Assembly (NCBI GenBank): GCA_944392525.1
Contig: CALXXB010000055.1
Span: forward strand, 1-7,692
Direction: 5' to 3'
DNA: 7,692 nt
Source: an uncultured Clostridia bacterium
GTDB lineage: Bacteria; Bacillota_A; Clostridia; TANB77; CAG-508
In this document: positions 1-7,692 of the stretch, piece by piece
Position numbering within the stretch: position 1 is the stretch's first letter
How the letters are laid out: each line of letters starts with the position of its first letter
Notes under the pieces: generated by a model
Told to the model about the DNA's origin: nothing
Databases searched by the model: none
The model's input: the letters and a program-made list of their open reading frames with translations, nothing else
Program-made: the position numbers and the translations under genes

Positions 1-512
1 TTTACTGCCACTTTATCAGCATCCTCTGCTGAATAATCAGTATAGAATGTTTCATCTCCTGTTTCTATTCCAGCTACATAGAAAATATTATGACTTGTCC
101 CATTTATAATATATAAATCTGTTAATCTATTAATCTGTATTTGAGTATTTGCTTCTCCGTTTTTTATTTTTTCATAATCTTTTCCATAGTTTAAAGTAAT
201 ATTTTCCATTGCAGCAAGGTCAATTACATAAAAAGGACCAATATCCGTTGCTTCACTAATAGAATTAATATGACTTATATTTGTATATTCTATGTTTGTA
301 TCAGCTGGAATCATACCATATTGAGCATAATATGTAGATACTTTATCACGTAAGTTTTCTATATCTGCTTGCATATTACTTAACTTAGTAGTTCCCATAC
401 TATCAGCTACATTATAAATAACAACATTTGTTAAAATCAAAATAATTGCAACTGTAATAACTAAAGAAATTAAGCTGACACCATTTTTTTTCTTAATCAA
501 GCTTTTCATCAT
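1..512 (-). CDS. Pilin-like protein with class III (prepilin) N-terminus, C-terminus off window
   Basis: An open minus-strand frame of 170 codons runs off the left edge, so the C-terminus is missing. The protein begins MMKSLIKKKNG followed by VSLISLVITVAIIL, a short basic leader, a Gly at residue 11 and then a hydrophobic helix to about residue 34. This is the layout of type IV pilins and type II secretion pseudopilins cut by prepilin peptidase after the Gly. Position +5 is Ser rather than the usual Glu, a variant I recall as common in Clostridia. The rest is a soluble domain with no motif I recognise. I chose the ATG at 512 because GGAG at 521-524 lies 8 bases upstream; an ATG at 518 is only 2 bases from it, which is too close. 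Only 39 bases separate this start from the M50 protease stop and no terminator is seen there, so co-transcription with it is likely. Whether it is a pilus subunit or another surface-exposed membrane protein cannot be told. Confidence 0.75.
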   Translation of the reverse strand, partial: MMKSLIKKKNGVSLISLVITVAIILILTNVVIYNVADSMGTTKLSNMQADIENLRDKVSTYYAQYGMIPADTNIEYTNISHINSISEATDIGPFYVIDLAAMENITLNYGKDYEKIKNGEANTQIQINRLTDLYIINGTSHNIFYVAGIETGDETFYTDYSAEDADKVAV

Positions 513-551
513 TTGCATTTCTCCTTTTTTATCTTTAGTATTAGTTTACTA

Positions 552-1217
552 TTAATTGGCTTTTATTTCAATAGTTTTTTCTATTAAATTATAAATTTTG
601 TTTCTTCTTCTATACACTCTATCCTCTTTAATATAAAGCATCCAAAGAAAAATAATAACAAGAAAAATCGCAACATTTTGTACATAAAAAATAGTAATAC
701 TAGCTACACATGTAATTATAATTAAAGTAATCAATGAAATACGATTAGTATATACCTCTGCTTTTCTTTTTCCACAAATCATATGTAAAACACTTTCTAA
801 AATTCTTCCTCCATCTAAAGGATAAAATGGTAATAAATTAAACATCATAAGTAACAAATTTGAATAAATAATTTTTAAACCTAAGAACACGTTCATATTA
901 TACTGTAATGCTATCAAAATTATAATCAAATTAGTTATAGGTCCTGCTAAAGCAACAACCATCTTTTTTATTTCTAATAAATTTCCTTTGCCAATCTTCC
1001 TATTATAGTCTTTTGTATTTAATTTAAAAGATATACTAACTCCATATGGCTTTAGTTCCATTTTATTTGGTTTCATTCCTAAAAGTAGTCCGCAAGCCAA
1101 ATGTCCTAATTCATGAAGAATTGCAAATGCAAGTATTAAAATATATGTACCTACTTGATTTGTAAAATAAAATAATAACAAAAACAAGAAAATCTTCAAG
1201 TCTATTTTAAATCGCAT
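552..1217 (-). CDS. spoIVFB: SpoIVFB-like site-2 protease (M50 family intramembrane metalloprotease)
   Basis: Polytopic membrane zinc protease of 221 residues. The catalytic HELGH motif is at residues 35-39 in a hydrophobic segment, AGPITN is at 91-96, and the second active-site motif NLLPFYPLDGGR at 127-138 supplies the third zinc ligand, Asp135. More hydrophobic segments lie at about 8-32, 86-104, 111-130 and 160-195. In Bacillus subtilis SpoIVFB cuts pro-sigma-K in the mother-cell-derived membrane around the forespore. The gene immediately upstream codes for a membrane-bound LytM protein, which is the spoIVFA-spoIVFB order and makes this assignment better than a generic M50 protease. The protein ends about 20 residues after the last membrane segment, so the CBS domain of the roughly 288-residue B. 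subtilis protein is absent. ATG at 1217 follows AAGGAGGAAG at 1221-1230, which overlaps the upstream stop codon, so the two genes are probably translationally coupled. I infer the substrate; none is visible here. Confidence 0.82.
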   Translation of the reverse strand: MRFKIDLKIFLFLLLFYFTNQVGTYILILAFAILHELGHLACGLLLGMKPNKMELKPYGVSISFKLNTKDYNRKIGKGNLLEIKKMVVALAGPITNLIIILIALQYNMNVFLGLKIIYSNLLLMMFNLLPFYPLDGGRILESVLHMICGKRKAEVYTNRISLITLIIITCVASITIFYVQNVAIFLVIIFLWMLYIKEDRVYRRRNKIYNLIEKTIEIKAN

Positions 1218-1229
1218 ATTCTTCCTCCT

Positions 1230-2096
1230 TTATAATTCTAAAATGCTTTGTGGATCTAATTTTCTTTCTTGGTATCTAATTTCAAAATGTAAATGTGGTC
1301 CTGTTGAATTACCTGTCGAACCAACCTCTGCTATTTCTTGTCCTTGTACAACCATATCTCCTTGTTTTACATATAAATTATTACAATGAGCATAAATAAT
1401 ACTTACTTCTCCTATTTGTATTTTTAAATGTTTTCCATAATCGCCTTCTTCTGATGCAAGTACAACCTCACCGTCAGTTGCAGACTTTATTTTTGTTCCT
1501 AAGTTTGCCGCAATGTCTGTTCCTGTATGATTTTTAGGAACAGTTCCTGTTGCTGTATCTCTTTGACCAAATTTAGATGAAACTACACCTTCTACTGGCT
1601 TTATAAAAGTAGTCGTTTCCTTAACTTTCTCTATATCTTGTTCTGTTTGAGATAATTCTTGTTTCTGCTCAGGTTCTGATACATCTAATTGTTCACTACT
1701 TGTAGTATTTTCTTCTGTCGCTCCTCCTATTGCGTCTTGTTCTACATTATTCTGCTCTGTATTATTATTCTCCTCTGTATTAGTAAACAAACTTAAAATA
1801 CTATTTTTCACATTGTTGTATAACTCCATGAAATTTGTATCATACGACAAAACTTCATTAACTTTATTAGTAAAATCTTCTGAGAAAACATATTCATTGT
1901 TTTGAATAACATAAACAACTAAATAAACAATTGTACATATTAATACTTGAATAAGCATCTTTTTCAATAGTTTTATATCTTTTTTTTCCTTATCACCTAC
2001 TTTTATAGTTGCTACTGGTCTAGTATTTCCTTGTCTTCTCTCATATATTGCCTCAGCTCGTCTAATTTTCTCTTCCACTGATAGTGTTCTTTCCAT
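1230..2096 (-). CDS. spoIVFA: SpoIVFA-like membrane protein with M23/LytM domain
   Basis: 288 residues: an Arg/Glu-rich cytosolic start (1-45, with an EKIRRAEAIYERRQ stretch), one transmembrane helix at about 46-65, a low-complexity Glu/Gln/Asn/Thr linker (about 105-160) and a C-terminal M23/LytM domain (about 165-288). The M23 ligand set looks complete: His190-x3-Asp194, His237, and HLH at 268-270, with GSTGNSTGPHLHFEIR giving the family signature. In B. subtilis SpoIVFA anchors and inhibits SpoIVFB and is located through its LytM domain binding forespore SpoIIQ; that domain is, as I recall, degenerate. Here the residues would allow real peptidoglycan endopeptidase activity. The stop lies 12 bases before the spoIVFB-like start. 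ATG at 2096 has a GAGGTG site upstream (about 2104-2109). Alternatives are another single-pass M23 sporulation protein (SpoIIQ-like) or a plain cell-wall hydrolase, but the M50 partner favours SpoIVFA. Confidence 0.75.
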   Translation of the reverse strand: MERTLSVEEKIRRAEAIYERRQGNTRPVATIKVGDKEKKDIKLLKKMLIQVLICTIVYLVVYVIQNNEYVFSEDFTNKVNEVLSYDTNFMELYNNVKNSILSLFTNTEENNNTEQNNVEQDAIGGATEENTTSSEQLDVSEPEQKQELSQTEQDIEKVKETTTFIKPVEGVVSSKFGQRDTATGTVPKNHTGTDIAANLGTKIKSATDGEVVLASEEGDYGKHLKIQIGEVSIIYAHCNNLYVKQGDMVVQGQEIAEVGSTGNSTGPHLHFEIRYQERKLDPQSILEL

Positions 2097-2127
2097 AAAA
2101 ATACACCTCTTCCTTAGTTTCTTTTAA

Positions 2128-2156
2128 ACTATATGTCAGGAAAAGATGTTTTATGC
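2128..2156 (-). promoter_or_regulatory. Candidate sigma-E-type promoter upstream of the spoIVFA-like gene
   Basis: On the minus strand GCATAAA (2150-2156) is followed after 14 bases by CATATAGT (2128-2135). This resembles the sigma-E pattern as I recall it (KMATATT, 13-15 bases, CATACAHT), matching 5 of 7 and 6 of 8 positions. The spacing is right, and the spoIVFAB operon of B. subtilis is under sigma-E control. In an AT-rich genome such matches also arise by chance. Confidence 0.38.
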
Positions 2157-2159
2157 TCT

Positions 2160-2513
2160 TTATTTTATTAATAATAACATCGTCTCTATAAAAATAATTA
2201 TTCCCATTACTATTACAGTTTTTTTCATTTTCTTACATTTAGTATTAATTTTCTTTTGAATCTCATTTCTTTCTTTTTTCTTTTTTTCTAATCTTGTAAT
2301 ATAATTTGATACTAACATTTCCGCTTCTTTTAAAATATAATCATTTTCTTTACTAGTTTTTATATTCTTGTTGTCTTTATCTATTTTTACATTTTCTATT
2401 TTTTCATCTTGCTTTACCCTACTATTAGTCTTAAGTACTACAATTGCTTCTTCAACTATATTAGATGGCAAATTTCTTAAAACTACCATATTCTTTAAAC
2501 CACTTTGATTCAT
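2160..2513 (-). CDS. Small tail-anchored membrane protein, unknown function
   Basis: 117 residues, family not recognised. The N-terminal 30 residues are hydrophobic-amphipathic (MVVLRNLPSNIVEEAIVVLK at 9-28) and look like a compact helix motif. Residues 30-60 are a Lys/Asp/Asn-rich, probably disordered linker. Residues 60-96 form a charged, probably coiled-coil helix, and residues 99-116 form a single C-terminal membrane helix. The likely topology is a cytosolic protein held in the membrane by its tail. ATG at 2513 follows GGAGGT at 2520-2525 with good spacing. It is first in the cluster, 63 bases upstream of the spoIVFA-like gene, with no clear terminator between; a separate sigma-E-like promoter may start within that gap. 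Position suggests, but does not prove, a membrane or sporulation role. The gene is probably real because of the strong ribosome binding site, sensible domain layout and full use of the space. Confidence 0.72.
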   Translation of the reverse strand: MNQSGLKNMVVLRNLPSNIVEEAIVVLKTNSRVKQDEKIENVKIDKDNKNIKTSKENDYILKEAEMLVSNYITRLEKKKKERNEIQKKINTKCKKMKKTVIVMGIIIFIETMLLLIK

Positions 2514-2589
2514 TTGTATACCTCCAAAATTTTATGTATTAGTATTATTATTTCCATTTTTTTCATACATATACATCTTGTACAATTTA

Positions 2590-2634
2590 TTATACAAAAA
2601 ATGAAGTAGAAACTTTTAATTTCTACTTCATCTT
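2590..2634 (-). terminator. Rho-independent terminator of the vWA surface-protein gene
   Basis: A perfect 12-bp inverted repeat, ATGAAGTAGAAA (2601-2612) and TTTCTACTTCAT (2620-2631), encloses a 7-base loop. Read on the minus strand it is followed by a run of T (complement of the A run at 2596-2600). It lies just after the stop codon of the gene ending at 2649 and before the 117-residue gene, so the surface protein is a separate transcription unit. There is no T run on the plus-strand side. Confidence 0.82.
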
Positions 2635-2648
2635 ATATTCATATCGTC

Positions 2649-4994
2649 TTAATTTCTTATTTTATCTATAATTGATGTAAATAGTGATTTTTTTAATATT
2701 TCATATACTGTCATATCAGTTTTTGGTCTACCTGTTGGTGGTATTACAATAACTTCATTAGTACTTTCATTTGAGTAGTCGATATCTTGACTATCACCTG
2801 GATAAGCTCCTGCATATTGATGTGATATATTTGCTCCTACTGTATATGTCATCCTTCTATTAGCTTGGTTTCCATATTTAAGTACTTCTGACGCTATTCC
2901 AAAATCAGGATTCTCTATATCGTCTAAGCTAGCTATCATTCTAGTTACTACATATTTTATAGTATATTCCCCACCTGGTGATATATAAAATCCATTTTCG
3001 CCTTCACCGTTATTATCTAATGTTAATTGTAATGCTACATGAGTTCCATACTTTTCTAATGTATCTTGAGTTACTAAATTCTCTCCTAGTAAACTTCCTA
3101 AATCTACATAATCCCAACCGGTGCTTTCGTTAGTTCCTTCTGTTGTTATTAGTGATACTTTTGGGTCATATATGAATTTCTCTGGTAGATAATTTAATAA
3201 TTCTAAATGTTCACATTGTATTGATGAGTCATTCTTTATGCTTACCGTATATTCGATTTGTATTGTAGTACCATATGCTAATTCATTATCTAATGTCTCT
3301 AGTATTGGGAAGTCTGTTCCTGGCTCTCTTGTTTGAGTATCTAGTACTTGTCCATTTTGTAATATAATTCTTAATCCTGTAGCTGTTATATCAGTAGCTA
3401 ATGTAAATCCTGGTCTTCTTGCTAATGTTAAGTTTCTACCTGTATATTCTGCTGATACGTGTTTTATTATTTTTACTAATACTTCTTCTCCTGTATCTGG
3501 GTCTGTTTCTGTTACTCTTATTTCACTTGGATTTGGTACTGCTGTTATTGTATAATTTTCTCCACCTTGTACTGTCATATATGTTTTACTACTTAATTCT
3601 TGTGCTTCATCTACTGAAGTAAAGTCATCTATTTGGTCAAACATTATTGTATTATTGTAATCCATCAAATCGAATTGTGCATCTACTTGTTCTCTTCTTG
3701 CTGAATCTTCATATCCTGATGTAACTGTATGGCTTGAGCTATAATATTTCTCATCTGTACTTGAAATTAAGAAGTCTTTTAGTTCTCCTTTTATTAGTTC
3801 TACTGTCTTATAACCATCCTCTATGTTCCAGAATTTTGATGAATGCTCAGCAAATATATTTTGTACATATGCATTTTCTTCTTCATCTGTTGATTTTGTA
3901 ATTAATGATATTACATTTACGCCATTACCTTTTAGTTCTTCTATTTTATTTATAGTAGATTCAGATACAATATCCAATTTTCTGTATGCTTCTTCTTCTG
4001 AGTCTGTATAGTAAGTTTGTGTATTACCATCTGATGTTGGCACACCATCTGATAATATTGTTAGATATCTATTTGAATCTTCTGTGTTATTGTAGAATGA
4101 TTCATATGATTTATCTAATGCTCCTACAACGTTAGTGTTTGCTGTTTGCCATCCGTTATTATTTATATCATCTAATGCTGTATTTAATTGATTCAAGTCT
4201 TTTGTTAATGATACTGCTCTGTAGTTAGTTCCTGAAAAGAATACTAAACCTATATATATGTTATTTCCACTTTGTATTAATTCTGAACATAATTGTTTTG
4301 CTGCGTCTACAACTACTGCCAACCTTGTTTTTGTTTCTCCGTTATATTCTACTTCAGTTGTACGCATACTGTATGAACAGTCAAGTGCTATATATAATTG
4401 TAACGCACCTTTTCCACTTTGTTCTACTTCTATTTTTTCTGAATCTAGATATTCTTCTGCTCCTGGTACACTTGCTGCAAAGTAGTCTTGTCCATTATAT
4501 TTTAATATATTTTCAACTAAGTCTTTATTACTTGCACTCACATCACTTCCAACCATTCCATAGACAAACTCTAAAGAATATGTTCCTGGTGATGGAGTAA
4601 ATTTATAATTACCACTTGCATCTGTTCTAGTTGATGCTACAGTGCTTCCACCCTGCTTTAAGTTTACTATTACGCCTTCGACAGGGATTGTTTGTTTTTC
4701 GTTATCAGCTCCCGCTGTACCTACAGAATATCCTAAATCTTCGTTCACATTACCTGATATTGCAGTATAATGTGTAATTATCTCTGTTGGTGTTGTCGGT
4801 CCTGAAGGGGTTGTTGATGATGGTGGGCTTGAACTTGATGGTGAGTCAGATGGTGTCGGTGGTGATGGTGCCGGTCCACTCTCTCCTAAAACTCCTCCTA
4901 TGAAACTAGCATATGATACTGTACATAAGATTTCTATCATCATAATAAACATAACTATCAATGCTATTATTTTAATATTTCTTTTCATCTTCAT
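2649..4994 (-). CDS. Secreted vWA-domain surface protein (adhesin-like) with IPPTG motif
   Basis: 781 residues from the ATG at 4994. In order: a basic start and hydrophobic signal peptide (4-29, likely cut after SYA); a Pro/Ser/Thr-rich linker (about 41-71); a Cna-B/SdrD-like beta domain (about 78-150, with TDASGNYKF and PGTYSLEF); a vWA domain (about 197-415) with an intact MIDAS, DCSYS at 205-209 plus Thr287 and Asp316 (in LSDG); then a Thr/Glu-rich beta region ending in DUF11-like segments (about 575-690, YTVSIKNDSS and LNYLPEKF). Such proteins bind host or cell-surface ligands or serve as pilus-tip adhesins. The C-terminus has IPPTG (751-755), sortase-like, but the 26 residues after it are not a hydrophobic anchor. 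The frame also opens at a GTG at 5012, but promoter-predicted transcription starts at or just upstream of that position and AGGGGAGGGG (5000-5009) lies 5 bases before ATG 4994, which decides this start. It is a single-gene unit with its own promoters and terminator. Ligand and localisation are unknown. Confidence 0.88.
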   Translation of the reverse strand: MKMKRNIKIIALIVMFIMMIEILCTVSYASFIGGVLGESGPAPSPPTPSDSPSSSSPPSSTTPSGPTTPTEIITHYTAISGNVNEDLGYSVGTAGADNEKQTIPVEGVIVNLKQGGSTVASTRTDASGNYKFTPSPGTYSLEFVYGMVGSDVSASNKDLVENILKYNGQDYFAASVPGAEEYLDSEKIEVEQSGKGALQLYIALDCSYSMRTTEVEYNGETKTRLAVVVDAAKQLCSELIQSGNNIYIGLVFFSGTNYRAVSLTKDLNQLNTALDDINNNGWQTANTNVVGALDKSYESFYNNTEDSNRYLTILSDGVPTSDGNTQTYYTDSEEEAYRKLDIVSESTINKIEELKGNGVNVISLITKSTDEEENAYVQNIFAEHSSKFWNIEDGYKTVELIKGELKDFLISSTDEKYYSSSHTVTSGYEDSARREQVDAQFDLMDYNNTIMFDQIDDFTSVDEAQELSSKTYMTVQGGENYTITAVPNPSEIRVTETDPDTGEEVLVKIIKHVSAEYTGRNLTLARRPGFTLATDITATGLRIILQNGQVLDTQTREPGTDFPILETLDNELAYGTTIQIEYTVSIKNDSSIQCEHLELLNYLPEKFIYDPKVSLITTEGTNESTGWDYVDLGSLLGENLVTQDTLEKYGTHVALQLTLDNNGEGENGFYISPGGEYTIKYVVTRMIASLDDIENPDFGIASEVLKYGNQANRRMTYTVGANISHQYAGAYPGDSQDIDYSNESTNEVIVIPPTGRPKTDMTVYEILKKSLFTSIIDKIRN

Positions 4995-4999
4995 AGAAA

Positions 5000-5009
5000 C
5001 CCCTCCCCT
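5000..5009 (-). promoter_or_regulatory. Ribosome binding site that decides the vWA gene start
   Basis: On the minus strand AGGGGAGGGG is followed by TTTCT and then ATG at 4994. If translation began at the upstream in-frame GTG (5012), this site would lie inside the coding sequence and the GTG would have no leader. The site therefore supports ATG 4994 and a protein starting MKMKRN. Confidence 0.75.
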
Positions 5010-5017
5010 CACTGTTA

Positions 5018-5056
5018 ATTATACCACATTTTACCTGTTCGGTCAATTTATGTCAA
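5018..5056 (-). promoter_or_regulatory. Two overlapping sigma-A-type promoters for the vWA gene
   Basis: Minus strand, promoter 1: TTGACC (complement of 5041-5046), 17-base spacer, TATAAT (5018-5023), with TGG directly before the -10 giving an extended -10 element. Promoter 2, shifted 10 bases upstream: TTGACA (5051-5056), 17-base spacer, TAAAAT (5028-5033). The expected starts, about 5011 and about 5021, leave short leaders carrying the ribosome binding site. Promoter 1 is near consensus and should be strong in vegetative cells. Confidence 0.72.
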
Positions 5057-5156
5057 CTTTTGTATTGTTTACAATTCACTATTTTTTGTAAAATGTATTT
5101 ATTTTTCATTTAAAGCATATAAATTTTATAAAAGTAGCTAAAATCAACCTGCTCAC
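5057..5156. other. AT-rich divergent intergenic core with small inverted repeat
   Basis: This stretch separates the divergent promoters of the vWA gene and the plus-strand SEC-C gene. TTTACAA (5068-5074) and TTGTAAA (5086-5092) form a 7-bp inverted repeat around 11 bases. It might be an operator, but the arms are short and AT-rich and could be chance. No open frame or RNA gene is seen. Confidence 0.25.
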
Positions 5157-5185
5157 TAGACAAATATATAAATTTATATTATACT
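5157..5185 (+). promoter_or_regulatory. Sigma-A-type promoter of the plus-strand SEC-C gene
   Basis: TAGACA (5157-5162, one mismatch to TTGACA) is followed after exactly 17 bases by TATACT (5180-5185). A start near 5192 would leave about 33 bases of leader with a GAGG site before ATG 5225. This places the start of expression well upstream of the long open frame and supports translation beginning at 5225. Confidence 0.6.
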
Positions 5186-5224
5186 AAACGATACCACAAA
5201 AAAATCTAATAAGAGGATAGTAAT

Positions 5225-5377
5225 ATGAAAGAAATTGATAAACTATTTCAAATAAGAGAAATAAAAGAAATTCAAAAATTATTAACTGAACTAATTAAGA
5301 AAATAAACTCTACAGATAAGACTCGTCAAGAGAAATTACTAAAGGAAATAACATCAAAAGCCAAAAAAAGAGACTAG
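5225..5377 (+). CDS. N-terminal 50-codon piece of the split SEC-C/DUF5677 gene
   Basis: ATG 5225 has a GAGG site (5213-5216) 8 bases upstream and a promoter at 5157-5185. The 50-residue product begins MKEIDKLFQIREIKEIQKLL and is a Lys/Glu-rich, probably coiled-coil helix ending in SKAKKRD. It reaches TAG at 5375-5377. Just before the stop is a run of seven A (5363-5369). A -1 shift there, equal to an eighth A, joins this frame to the long open frame, which is already open from 5320 but has no start codon of its own in that stretch. I read this as the true 5' end of that gene, separated by a frameshift. It could instead be a separate small protein whose translation stops before the large one. 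Confidence 0.6.
   Translation: MKEIDKLFQIREIKEIQKLLTELIKKINSTDKTRQEKLLKEITSKAKKRD
5363..5369 (+). other. A7 run: probable frameshift or slippage point
   Basis: The upstream frame reads GCC AAA AAA AGA GAC TAG here. With one more A it reads GCC AAA AAA AAG AGA CTA GAA and continues without a stop to 7380, giving a 718-residue protein. The heptamer is not a good ribosomal -1 site, because pairing after P-site slippage would be CAA. A real indel, polymerase slippage on the A run, or an assembly error are all more likely than classic programmed frameshifting. Confidence 0.55.
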
Positions 5378-5392
5378 AACTTGAAAAAACAT

Positions 5393-5416
5393 ATTCAATA
5401 ACAAATTCAATAACAA
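5393..5416 (+). repeat. Perfect 12-bp tandem duplication
   Basis: ATTCAATAACAA occurs twice in direct succession (5393-5404 and 5405-5416). Its length is four codons, so it keeps the frame of the long SEC-C gene and encodes SIT-N-SIT. It lies between the A7 run and the TTG at 5449, in the stretch where the long frame is open but lacks a start. Confidence 0.8.
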
Positions 5417-5448
5417 TATATCCAGAGGATGTTGCGCCGTTAGCATTA

Positions 5449-7380
5449 TTGGTTGAAGAAATTAGTAATGATGCAAATAACAATGAAGATATATTAAAAG
5501 TTCTAAAATTTAATCTAAATAATTATTATAAACAGTTTAAAAAAACAGAAAAAAATGATTTTTGCATGAATATAGAAAAATTCAAACAAATACTAATGAT
5601 TTTAAACCAAGAATGCAACTTCTTTAAAATCTTACAAAACAAAGGTGTTCACTTAAGTATCATGATGTTTCATGCTAAATTTAGAGAACAAATGATAGAT
5701 ATTTTAAATTATAATTCTATTAATAATACAAATTTTGCTCTTCATTGCTTCTATTGTAAATTACCTTCAATAGATGAAGATCGAATACTTGAAATTGAAT
5801 TAGAACAATTTGGATATTTATTCAAGGAAATCCTTGTAGGTGAATCACAGAAAGCTCCTAATGGTTTTCTAGAATTATTTAATGCTATTGATGATATGCC
5901 AGCAATAGATGAAGAATCAAAAGAATTAACATCTTTATTTGCTAATTCATTTGCTCACTATATTTTAGAAAAAATGGAAATGAAGATTCAAAAAGAATTA
6001 GGTATTGATAAAATAGAACATTTAGAATCAAGAGATGAAGCTTTTGTAAAAGACTTTGTTATCTATTTTGATAATTTAGTAAATGATTTGTTAGCAGAGG
6101 AAACAGAATGGGATGATAATGAAAAATGTCCTTGTGGTAGTGGAAAAACTTACAAAAAATGTTGTAAGAAAAAGAAAATAAAGTATTATAAAGGCGACAT
6201 TGAAAATAGCTATGTAAAAGCAATTCCTATACATCCTGATTTAGAGCCAGTTTTAAAAGGAGAAAAAATAAGATTTAAAAAAATATTTGGTAGAATGCGA
6301 GGAAATGAAGATTATATTCAAGGAGGAGTATTACTAAGAGATTTTAAAAGAGGATATAAACTAATGAAGAGAAATAATGTAGTCGATAAAGCTTGGTTAT
6401 ATGCTTCATACAAAACAGGAATCATGCTTACAGATGAAAACAAAGATTTATTACCTCAAAAGGATATAAAAGAATTTATTAAATATGTTCATGAATATAA
6501 AAAATTAATGAAAAGTAAAATAAAAGGTAACAATTTAAATGTTTTACAAGCTGTCGATGCCACTAATTTTATTTTAGAAAATATGATATCAGAAGACATT
6601 CCTAATATGATATATGTACTTAATTTATGCGTGAACTTTTATAGTACTGATTCAAATACAGATACAAACAAAAAGTTTATTATTCATAACATAAAAGATT
6701 TCTTAGTTTTTTGTGCTTATAAAGCAAGCCTCCACCTAACAGTCTTACAAGAACTAGTAAATGGCGAATATTATGATACAGCAATGGCAGAAGTAAGAAT
6801 TATTTTTGAGATTCTTATTTCTATGAGAGCTTATAAACAAAATCCTGATTTATTTGAAAAGAAAATATTGTCTGTTATGGGAGTAGAATTAGGTACACAT
6901 AGGAAATTAAAAAATAAGCATATAGTTGAGAACCTAAAAACTGGAGAACAATATAAATATGATATACAAAAAAAGCAATTAGCGGAAAAAGCTGGTGAAA
7001 ATTATAAAAAATTGTATGATACTTTATATAGTGAACTATCAGAATTTATACACTTAGATACAGAATCAGCTAAAAATATTTTCCAAGATAAAGATTTATT
7101 TTTAGATATTGATGAATGTCTAATAGCTGGCTTTTTAGGAATGATATTAGAATTAGAAATCATTATGGAATTAATAGATTTTGAAGGTAGCAATAAAAAG
7201 ATTAATAATGATATTAAATATTTTTCAAACACGCTATTAAAAGACTTTTTAAGTCTCCTACCTACCATTATTTCCATTGAAGATAAAGAAGTATACCATA
7301 TTTTAGAAGATACACTAAAAGAATACAAAACAGATTATAAAATTAATTATCAAAGGAATACTAACTATGAAACATATTAA
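5449..7380 (+). CDS. SEC-C zinc-motif protein with DUF5677-like C-terminal half (5' end displaced by frameshift)
   Basis: The longest start-to-stop reading gives 643 residues from a TTG at 5449. Residues 1-220 are helical and unrecognised. A SEC-C zinc motif, CPCGSGKTYKKCC, lies at 227-239, followed by a Lys run. Residues about 410-575 resemble DUF5677: a helical segment with LQELVNGEYYDTAMAEVR and IIFEILISMRAY, then LYSELSEFIHLD at 526-537. SEC-C motifs bind zinc and occur at the end of SecA and in many uncharacterised proteins; DUF5677 proteins have no established activity that I know. The TTG has no ribosome binding site at proper distance (AGAGGAT at 5424-5430 is 18 bases away). The frame is open back to 5320 with coding-like sequence (KRLELEKTYSITNSI), and the first in-frame ATG is only at 5566. 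I therefore think the true protein starts at 5225 and has about 718 residues. The gene converges on a nuclease gene, suggesting a defence or accessory locus, which is inference. Confidence 0.75.
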   Translation: MVEEISNDANNNEDILKVLKFNLNNYYKQFKKTEKNDFCMNIEKFKQILMILNQECNFFKILQNKGVHLSIMMFHAKFREQMIDILNYNSINNTNFALHCFYCKLPSIDEDRILEIELEQFGYLFKEILVGESQKAPNGFLELFNAIDDMPAIDEESKELTSLFANSFAHYILEKMEMKIQKELGIDKIEHLESRDEAFVKDFVIYFDNLVNDLLAEETEWDDNEKCPCGSGKTYKKCCKKKKIKYYKGDIENSYVKAIPIHPDLEPVLKGEKIRFKKIFGRMRGNEDYIQGGVLLRDFKRGYKLMKRNNVVDKAWLYASYKTGIMLTDENKDLLPQKDIKEFIKYVHEYKKLMKSKIKGNNLNVLQAVDATNFILENMISEDIPNMIYVLNLCVNFYSTDSNTDTNKKFIIHNIKDFLVFCAYKASLHLTVLQELVNGEYYDTAMAEVRIIFEILISMRAYKQNPDLFEKKILSVMGVELGTHRKLKNKHIVENLKTGEQYKYDIQKKQLAEKAGENYKKLYDTLYSELSEFIHLDTESAKNIFQDKDLFLDIDECLIAGFLGMILELEIIMELIDFEGSNKKINNDIKYFSNTLLKDFLSLLPTIISIEDKEVYHILEDTLKEYKTDYKINYQRNTNYETY

Positions 7381-7410
7381 AAGGAGAACATTCATATTCT
7401 CCTTTATTTT
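7380..7410. terminator. Hairpin terminator between convergent genes, probably bidirectional
   Basis: AAAGGAGAA (7380-7388) pairs with TTCTCCTTT (7397-7405) around an 8-base loop. On the plus strand ATTTTAT follows, and on the minus strand TTTTAATATG follows. It begins at the stop codon of the SEC-C gene and lies just beyond the stop of the minus-strand nuclease gene, so it can serve both. The T runs are short, so strength is uncertain. Confidence 0.7.
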
Positions 7411-7692
7411 ATATATTATTTTCTATTATTTTTTCTTTTAAGATATCTATAGGAGATTTCTTTATATTAACAATATCATCTAACAAAATAACAATAATAT
7501 TTTTATTTGTTTCTCTTAACTTGTCAACCTCTTTTAATGCTGCTTTTGTTAAATTAGACGTAGTTACTAATATTGAATATGAAATTCCTTTCATTTCCAT
7601 AATACAACTTAAGTTTCTTATTGTCTTAACAGGTATTTTACTTTTATGATTTTTACATTCTACTAATACAACTGAACCTAATTCCCAAAGTA
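7409..7692 (-). CDS. Mrr-like PD-(D/E)XK restriction endonuclease domain, C-terminal part, N-terminus off window
   Basis: The frame is open from the right edge to TAA at 7409-7411, giving 93 visible residues. Near the start it reads LWELGSVVLVECKNHKSKIP; VECKN carries the Glu-x-Lys half of the PD-(D/E)XK active site (codons at about 7652-7660), and TIRNL, KGISYSILVTTSNLTKAAL and a beta strand IIVILLD follow in the usual order of Mrr-type catalytic domains. The catalytic Asp should lie upstream, outside the window. An internal ATG at 7600 would remove VECKN, so it is not the true start. Mrr-like nucleases cut DNA, often modified or foreign DNA, in restriction and related defence systems, but the domain is also found fused to other modules. 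The missing N-terminal part would decide the type. It converges with the SEC-C gene. Confidence 0.7.
   Translation of the reverse strand, partial: LWELGSVVLVECKNHKSKIPVKTIRNLSCIMEMKGISYSILVTTSNLTKAALKEVDKLRETNKNIIVILLDDIVNIKKSPIDILKEKIIENNI

Follow-up and report, generated by a model that had tools for sequence, protein, structure and literature searches.

Apart from its unbroken relatives, the gene described here is most similar to two kinds of systems known from other bacteria, i.e., to the pseudogene or indel-mutant class of the GeneTack survey (PMC3711429) and to tssM of Citrobacter rodentium (PMC4256274). As that class is characterised in the parts of the survey drawn on here, it shares with the present gene an isolated frame break, the existence of unbroken relatives, the lack of a recoding motif, and the loss of most of the protein. 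In tssM, the frame break likewise lies at an A run, with a stop soon after it, and the portion of the report used here describes rescue at a tract of 11 A. Poly-A switches in other bacteria are also covered by the GeneTack paper (PMC3711429, same parts). Concerning the signals needed for slippage, excerpts of the respective publications state for E. coli that its RNA polymerase slips at a minimum of 7 T and at even more A (PMC6260861), and that the tetramer A_AA.A ranks last of six active tetramers and is pseudoknot-dependent (PMC4066793); the slippage thresholds come from E. coli and may not apply to the organism studied here.

The window, i.e., the whole analysed stretch of 7,692 nucleotides, derives from a contig of an uncultured Clostridia bacterium and carries on its plus strand, at 5225-7380, a split gene (Table 1). 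Probably, though by no means certainly, one large, patchily distributed SEC-C/DUF5677 accessory gene has here recently become a loss-of-function allele, for which we infer a point indel in the DNA, abolished function, and tolerated loss of a dispensable gene. Despite the general similarity to the systems named above, there are differences: The GeneTack class was rated from 1106 complete genomes, whereas here one contig and database counts are available, and the gene has not yet decayed. In tssM the tract is A11 and slippage was measured, whereas the window gene possesses A7 and is known from its sequence alone. The unbroken relatives encode the same protein at full length in one frame, whereas the window gene is split after about 48 residues.

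Table 1. Features of the split gene and its neighbours in the window. P0001 is the closest relative among the scored candidates; L001 is a locus of a Clostridia MAG in which the gene is unbroken, at 73% to the window.
Feature	Position	Strand	Evidence
Neighbouring gene, VWA / SdrD-B protein	2649..5012	-	Pfam; 70% counterpart adjoins the L001 gene
Promoter-like site TAGACA-17-TATACT	5157..5185	+	10/12 consensus matches
AGAGG, probable ribosome binding site, 8 bases 5' of ATG 5225	5212..5216	+	Sequence reading
Gene piece 1: 50 codons, start MKEIDKLFQ, out-of-frame end at TAG 5375-5377	5225..5377	+	Residues 1-48 align to P0001 1-48, 9 differences
A7 run, meeting point of both frames	5363..5369	+	Sequence reading
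Gene piece 2: family-protein residues 50-718, -1 frame, ends at TAA 7378-7380	5371..7380	+	Ungapped match to P0001 50-718
SEC-C motif (CPCGSGKTYKKCC), zinc-binding by family	6118..6165	+	Pfam PF02810, 27.1 bits vs cut-off 20.4
DUF5677 domain	6730..7092	+	Pfam PF18928, 29.6 bits vs cut-off 27.1
Neighbouring Mrr_cat restriction-endonuclease-like gene, 3' end, exits the window	7409..7690	-	Pfam PF04471, E 2.1e-10; 72% counterpart in L001

The long frame was searched against about 5.8 billion proteins, of which the 7996 candidates sharing most words with it were scored, and 43 of these are relatives at E 0.001 or better. The junction is covered by 24 of the 43, all of which cross it in a single frame, and no frame change was found in any of these 24; the other 19 start later. 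P0001 has 718 residues, is 95% identical, and gives an ungapped alignment to both window pieces, in which 41 of 717 compared positions differ, so that the correspondence lies above chance. Among P0001-P0021, 17 unbroken relatives of 712-718 aa are found, most of which start with M-(K/R)-E-I; the like genes at the loci L001 and L002 come from Clostridia MAGs. Since all 24 junction-covering relatives are single-frame and P0001 begins with MKEIDKLFQ, the true start is, by homology, at 5225, and the two pieces belong to one gene. This agrees with the preliminary description, which, from the letters of the window, had placed the probable start at 5225 and the apparent split at the A7 run where both frames indeed meet, and had suggested looking among homologues for one continuous protein starting with MKEIDKLFQ, as P0001 now provides. 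In annotation, one frame-broken gene from 5225 should be recorded, and not a 50-residue and a 643-residue gene.

The coordinates given in the preliminary description are correct, including TTG 5449 as the first start codon of the long frame, which is not preceded by a ribosome site. The promoter assigned to 5157-5185 exists as a site; however, 7 such sites occur in 5013-5600 and 5.1 are expected by chance, and since promoter-like sites are found here at about chance frequency, this one taken alone is no evidence. The long frame, said to be coding-like back to 5320, is free of stops from 5320 to 7377 (preceding TAA at 5317-5319); its homology to the relatives, however, begins only at about 5368, and 5320-5367 is out-of-frame overlap. 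Judged from this, it is by chance that the frame extends back to 5320, and the stretch 5320-5367 is not protein-like. A stop-free stretch of 43 codons arises in 2.65% of 20,000 base shuffles and is thus not very rare; one of 686 codons arose in none of 20,000. Finally, the single extra A in the run that was to fuse both frames would correspond to the one protein of 718 residues, but the aligner places the gap a few bases 3' of the A7 run. The frame change is located between GCC 5360-5362 and about 5373, such that, by alignment, the base concerned is not fixed, need not lie in the run, and may lie outside it altogether.

In the relatives, the gene forms one frame of 698-718 codons with a helix-rich N-terminal domain, the SEC-C zinc motif, and a C-terminal helical DUF5677 domain. 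In the window gene, the reading frame would be shifted by a net one base (modulo three) at the A7 run or right next to it; about 48 residues in, translation would thus leave the frame and meet a stop two codons on. As no well-placed in-frame start exists up to residue 358, the full protein would probably be absent, or be present in traces via slippage, and its loss would be tolerated in a patchy and dispensable gene.

Two genes instead of one, i.e., a peptide of 50 residues and, initiated within the long frame, a shorter SEC-C/DUF5677 protein, are very improbable. Among the relatives there are indeed short ones of 403-421 residues with a start immediately before SEC-C (P0035, P0037-P0043), and locus L004 has the short form too, in a frame of 419 codons. 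However, among the 11 in-frame start codons checked up to residue 358, not one is preceded by a suitably spaced ribosome site (AAGG lies 16 bases from one of them), and the 24 relatives pass over the junction in a single frame. The preliminary description had named a separate conserved 50-residue gene as the case that would speak against a split gene; a search among proteins of similar length gave 9 candidates, of which the window's own sequence alone matched. An assembly or sequencing error in a gene that is truly unbroken, which had also been offered as a cause, is less improbable than two genes but still quite unlikely. Homopolymer length errors arise in some sequencing methods, a single base would account for everything, and the remainder of the gene is undamaged. 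Against this, the exact 50-residue product with its out-of-frame end stands, as a single database sequence, on 6 contigs (the longest of 18,366 bases; the window is probably one of them), whose samples are not given as independent by the database and which may share one study or host and hence one systematic error. The exact 117-residue protein encoded at 2160-2513, about 2.7 kb off and used as a yardstick for the strain, is found on 4 contigs, of which the longest again has 18,366 bases. The broken form is therefore no rarer than the strain marker (6 vs. 4 contigs, the 6 being selected for the out-of-frame form and both counts reflecting the majority base only, with minority tract lengths invisible), and because of the 6 contigs a one-off assembly error appears unlikely. 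None of the other four A7 runs in the gene, furthermore, interrupts the frame. The cluster of P0001 comprises 5 sequences on 4 contigs, and a near-identical strain may carry the gene in unbroken form.

Given a real break, the run itself may be a phase-variable switch, at which slipped-strand mispairing toggles the gene within the population; we consider this unlikely, though the least unlikely of the alternatives weighed here. In its favour, it is a homopolymer at which the frames meet, no damage is seen elsewhere in the gene, poly-A switches are covered for other bacteria in the parts of the GeneTack paper used (PMC3711429), and accessory, possibly defence-linked genes are plausible targets of switches. 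At the homologous codons, L002 has an A7 in the same phase as well, but its frame is open, and L001 and L003 are without A7 there; across the relatives, tract length therefore does not set the frame. In the whole gene, 5 A runs of at least 7 are seen where 4.4 are expected, all five being exactly 7, i.e., they occur at chance level. Nor was a second tract length of the strain seen, all 6 contigs being out-of-frame in a count selected for that form. Alternatively, RNA polymerase or the ribosome may slip at the A7 and so produce some full-length protein. Such a rescue is doubtful, slightly more so than a sequencing error: The run does offer the weak tetramer A_AA.A, and tssM provides a precedent for A tracts (PMC4256274, in the portion used), but with A11, and the excerpted requirement of E. 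coli RNA polymerase, a minimum of 7 T and a still longer run in the case of A (PMC6260861), stands against it. An X_XXZ_ZZN slippery heptamer is absent from the frame-0 codons GCC AAA AAA AGA GAC TAG, which hold that tetramer alone, and a downstream RNA stem at 5372-5460 is no better than in shuffles (z = -0.09, fold without pseudoknots); moreover, 24 relatives manage without slippage. A proven switch would be more interesting, yet the evidence leans against the homopolymer switch or slippage put forward in the preliminary description. Among the causes it offered, a recent null mutation fits best, with a break that looks young and no recoding signals found.

Concerning this probable loss-of-function allele, its age can be viewed against L001. 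Residues 1-46 show dN 0.21 and dS 1.14 (dN/dS about 0.19), residues 50-125 dN 0.25 and dS 1.39 (about 0.18), and residues 126-718 dN 0.14 and dS 0.89 (about 0.16). By contrast, in the 26 codons 50-75, the differences by position are 15, 5, and 15 at 46% identity; dS was not computable there and a third-position excess against L001 was not present. Neither stops nor frame breaks follow the junction over 669 codons. In the three segments for which dS could be computed, a signature of purifying selection persists relative to L001, which suggests a young break, although a comparison spanning so long a time does not permit fine dating. Standing against a loss of function, the 669 undamaged codons would also fit a gene that is expressed at times, and the A7 occurs at the same codons in L002, such that the tract is not wholly unshared.

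The differences between the window and P0001 are distributed unevenly, with far greater divergence in the first 125 codons than in the remainder of the gene: 23 of 124 residues differ in 1-125 (5225-5599) and 3 of 155 in 126-280. Between P0001 and P0002, 42 of 125 and 59 of 154 differ in the matching bins (Fisher p = 1.5e-5, with bins chosen after seeing the data). In residues 1-125, the window and P0001 are about equally distant from P0002 (46 and 42 differences), which makes recombination a simpler cause than decay and suggests a mosaic allele in the first 125 codons.

Breaks of other kinds are found in related copies. The gene of L003 (genus of genome G001; 5866-7991) has two other frame breaks, with 5 and 8 bases missing compared to the window as judged by eye; the first of them is shared, since P0028, a different sequence, ends in its out-of-frame tail. 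A distant copy in G311 lacks its middle. P0027 (434 aa, 17 member sequences, on a contig of up to 45,029 bases) starts at about family residue 60, just past the window's break, and could, from its sequence, represent another N-terminally broken lineage. Within the genus of G001, a match at E 1e-10 is found in 3 of 210 genomes, and within the family sample of G003 in 5 of 390. The G001 family sample contains the gene in 4 of 390 genomes at E 3.3e-36 or better; 51 further genomes of that sample match only at E 2.4e-6 to 1e-3, and, except in G018 and G022, these matches fall on the SEC-C stretch (the genus and family samples overlap). By these counts and broken copies, the gene looks patchy and its loss recurrent and ordinary. 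Being patchily distributed, located next to restriction-like genes, and interrupted in more than one lineage, the SEC-C/DUF5677 family behaves as expected of dispensable defence or stress genes. A more far-reaching view, according to which the SEC-C/DUF5677 protein forms an on/off locus at the population level, possibly defence-linked and repeatedly broken and regained by related strains, here via the frame break and recombination of the first 125 codons, is speculative and only marginally less unlikely than a sequencing error.

Both SEC-C (PF02810) and DUF5677 (PF18928) lie above the membership cut-offs of their families. The fold of the intact relative is well predicted, and comparison of this predicted fold with solved structures gave no reliable likeness. 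The break sits within a long predicted helix (P0001 residues 32-57), and the 50-residue product is for this reason unlikely to fold as it would in the whole protein. In PADLOC, the window protein matches E2 at E 1.7e-5 and PDC-S12 at 6.3e-4, both over residues 256-296 around SEC-C, and none of the defence models is matched over its functional part; the Mrr_cat neighbour has five weak matches (best PDC-S02, E 2.9e-4), and six scanned genes that flank the gene in L001 and L003 yielded two weak matches only. The possible defence gene of the preliminary description thus finds little in these matches, which for the window protein are weak and confined to the SEC-C stretch. The chromosomal site is variable and contains restriction-like genes, which makes a role in defence or stress plausible but no more than that, and an intracellular one of either kind is a guess from the neighbours.

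Regarding these neighbours, both those flanking the window gene are kept at L001 (Table 1). Downstream of the intact gene of L001, at 8001-10452, a full Mrr_cat gene, a 326-residue protein without a Pfam match, and a second DUF5677 protein (277 residues) are situated. Upstream of the L003 gene, at 14-5625, there are HSDR_N_2-like and HNH endonuclease genes as well as a PemK-like match below its cut-off, and directly downstream of it follow relatives of the window genes at 3-2513 (117-residue protein, M23, M50, pilin-like). The 117-residue protein, encoded on the minus strand of the window, is without a Pfam match and has 861 database relatives; its gene precedes that of the M23 peptidase both in the window and in L003.
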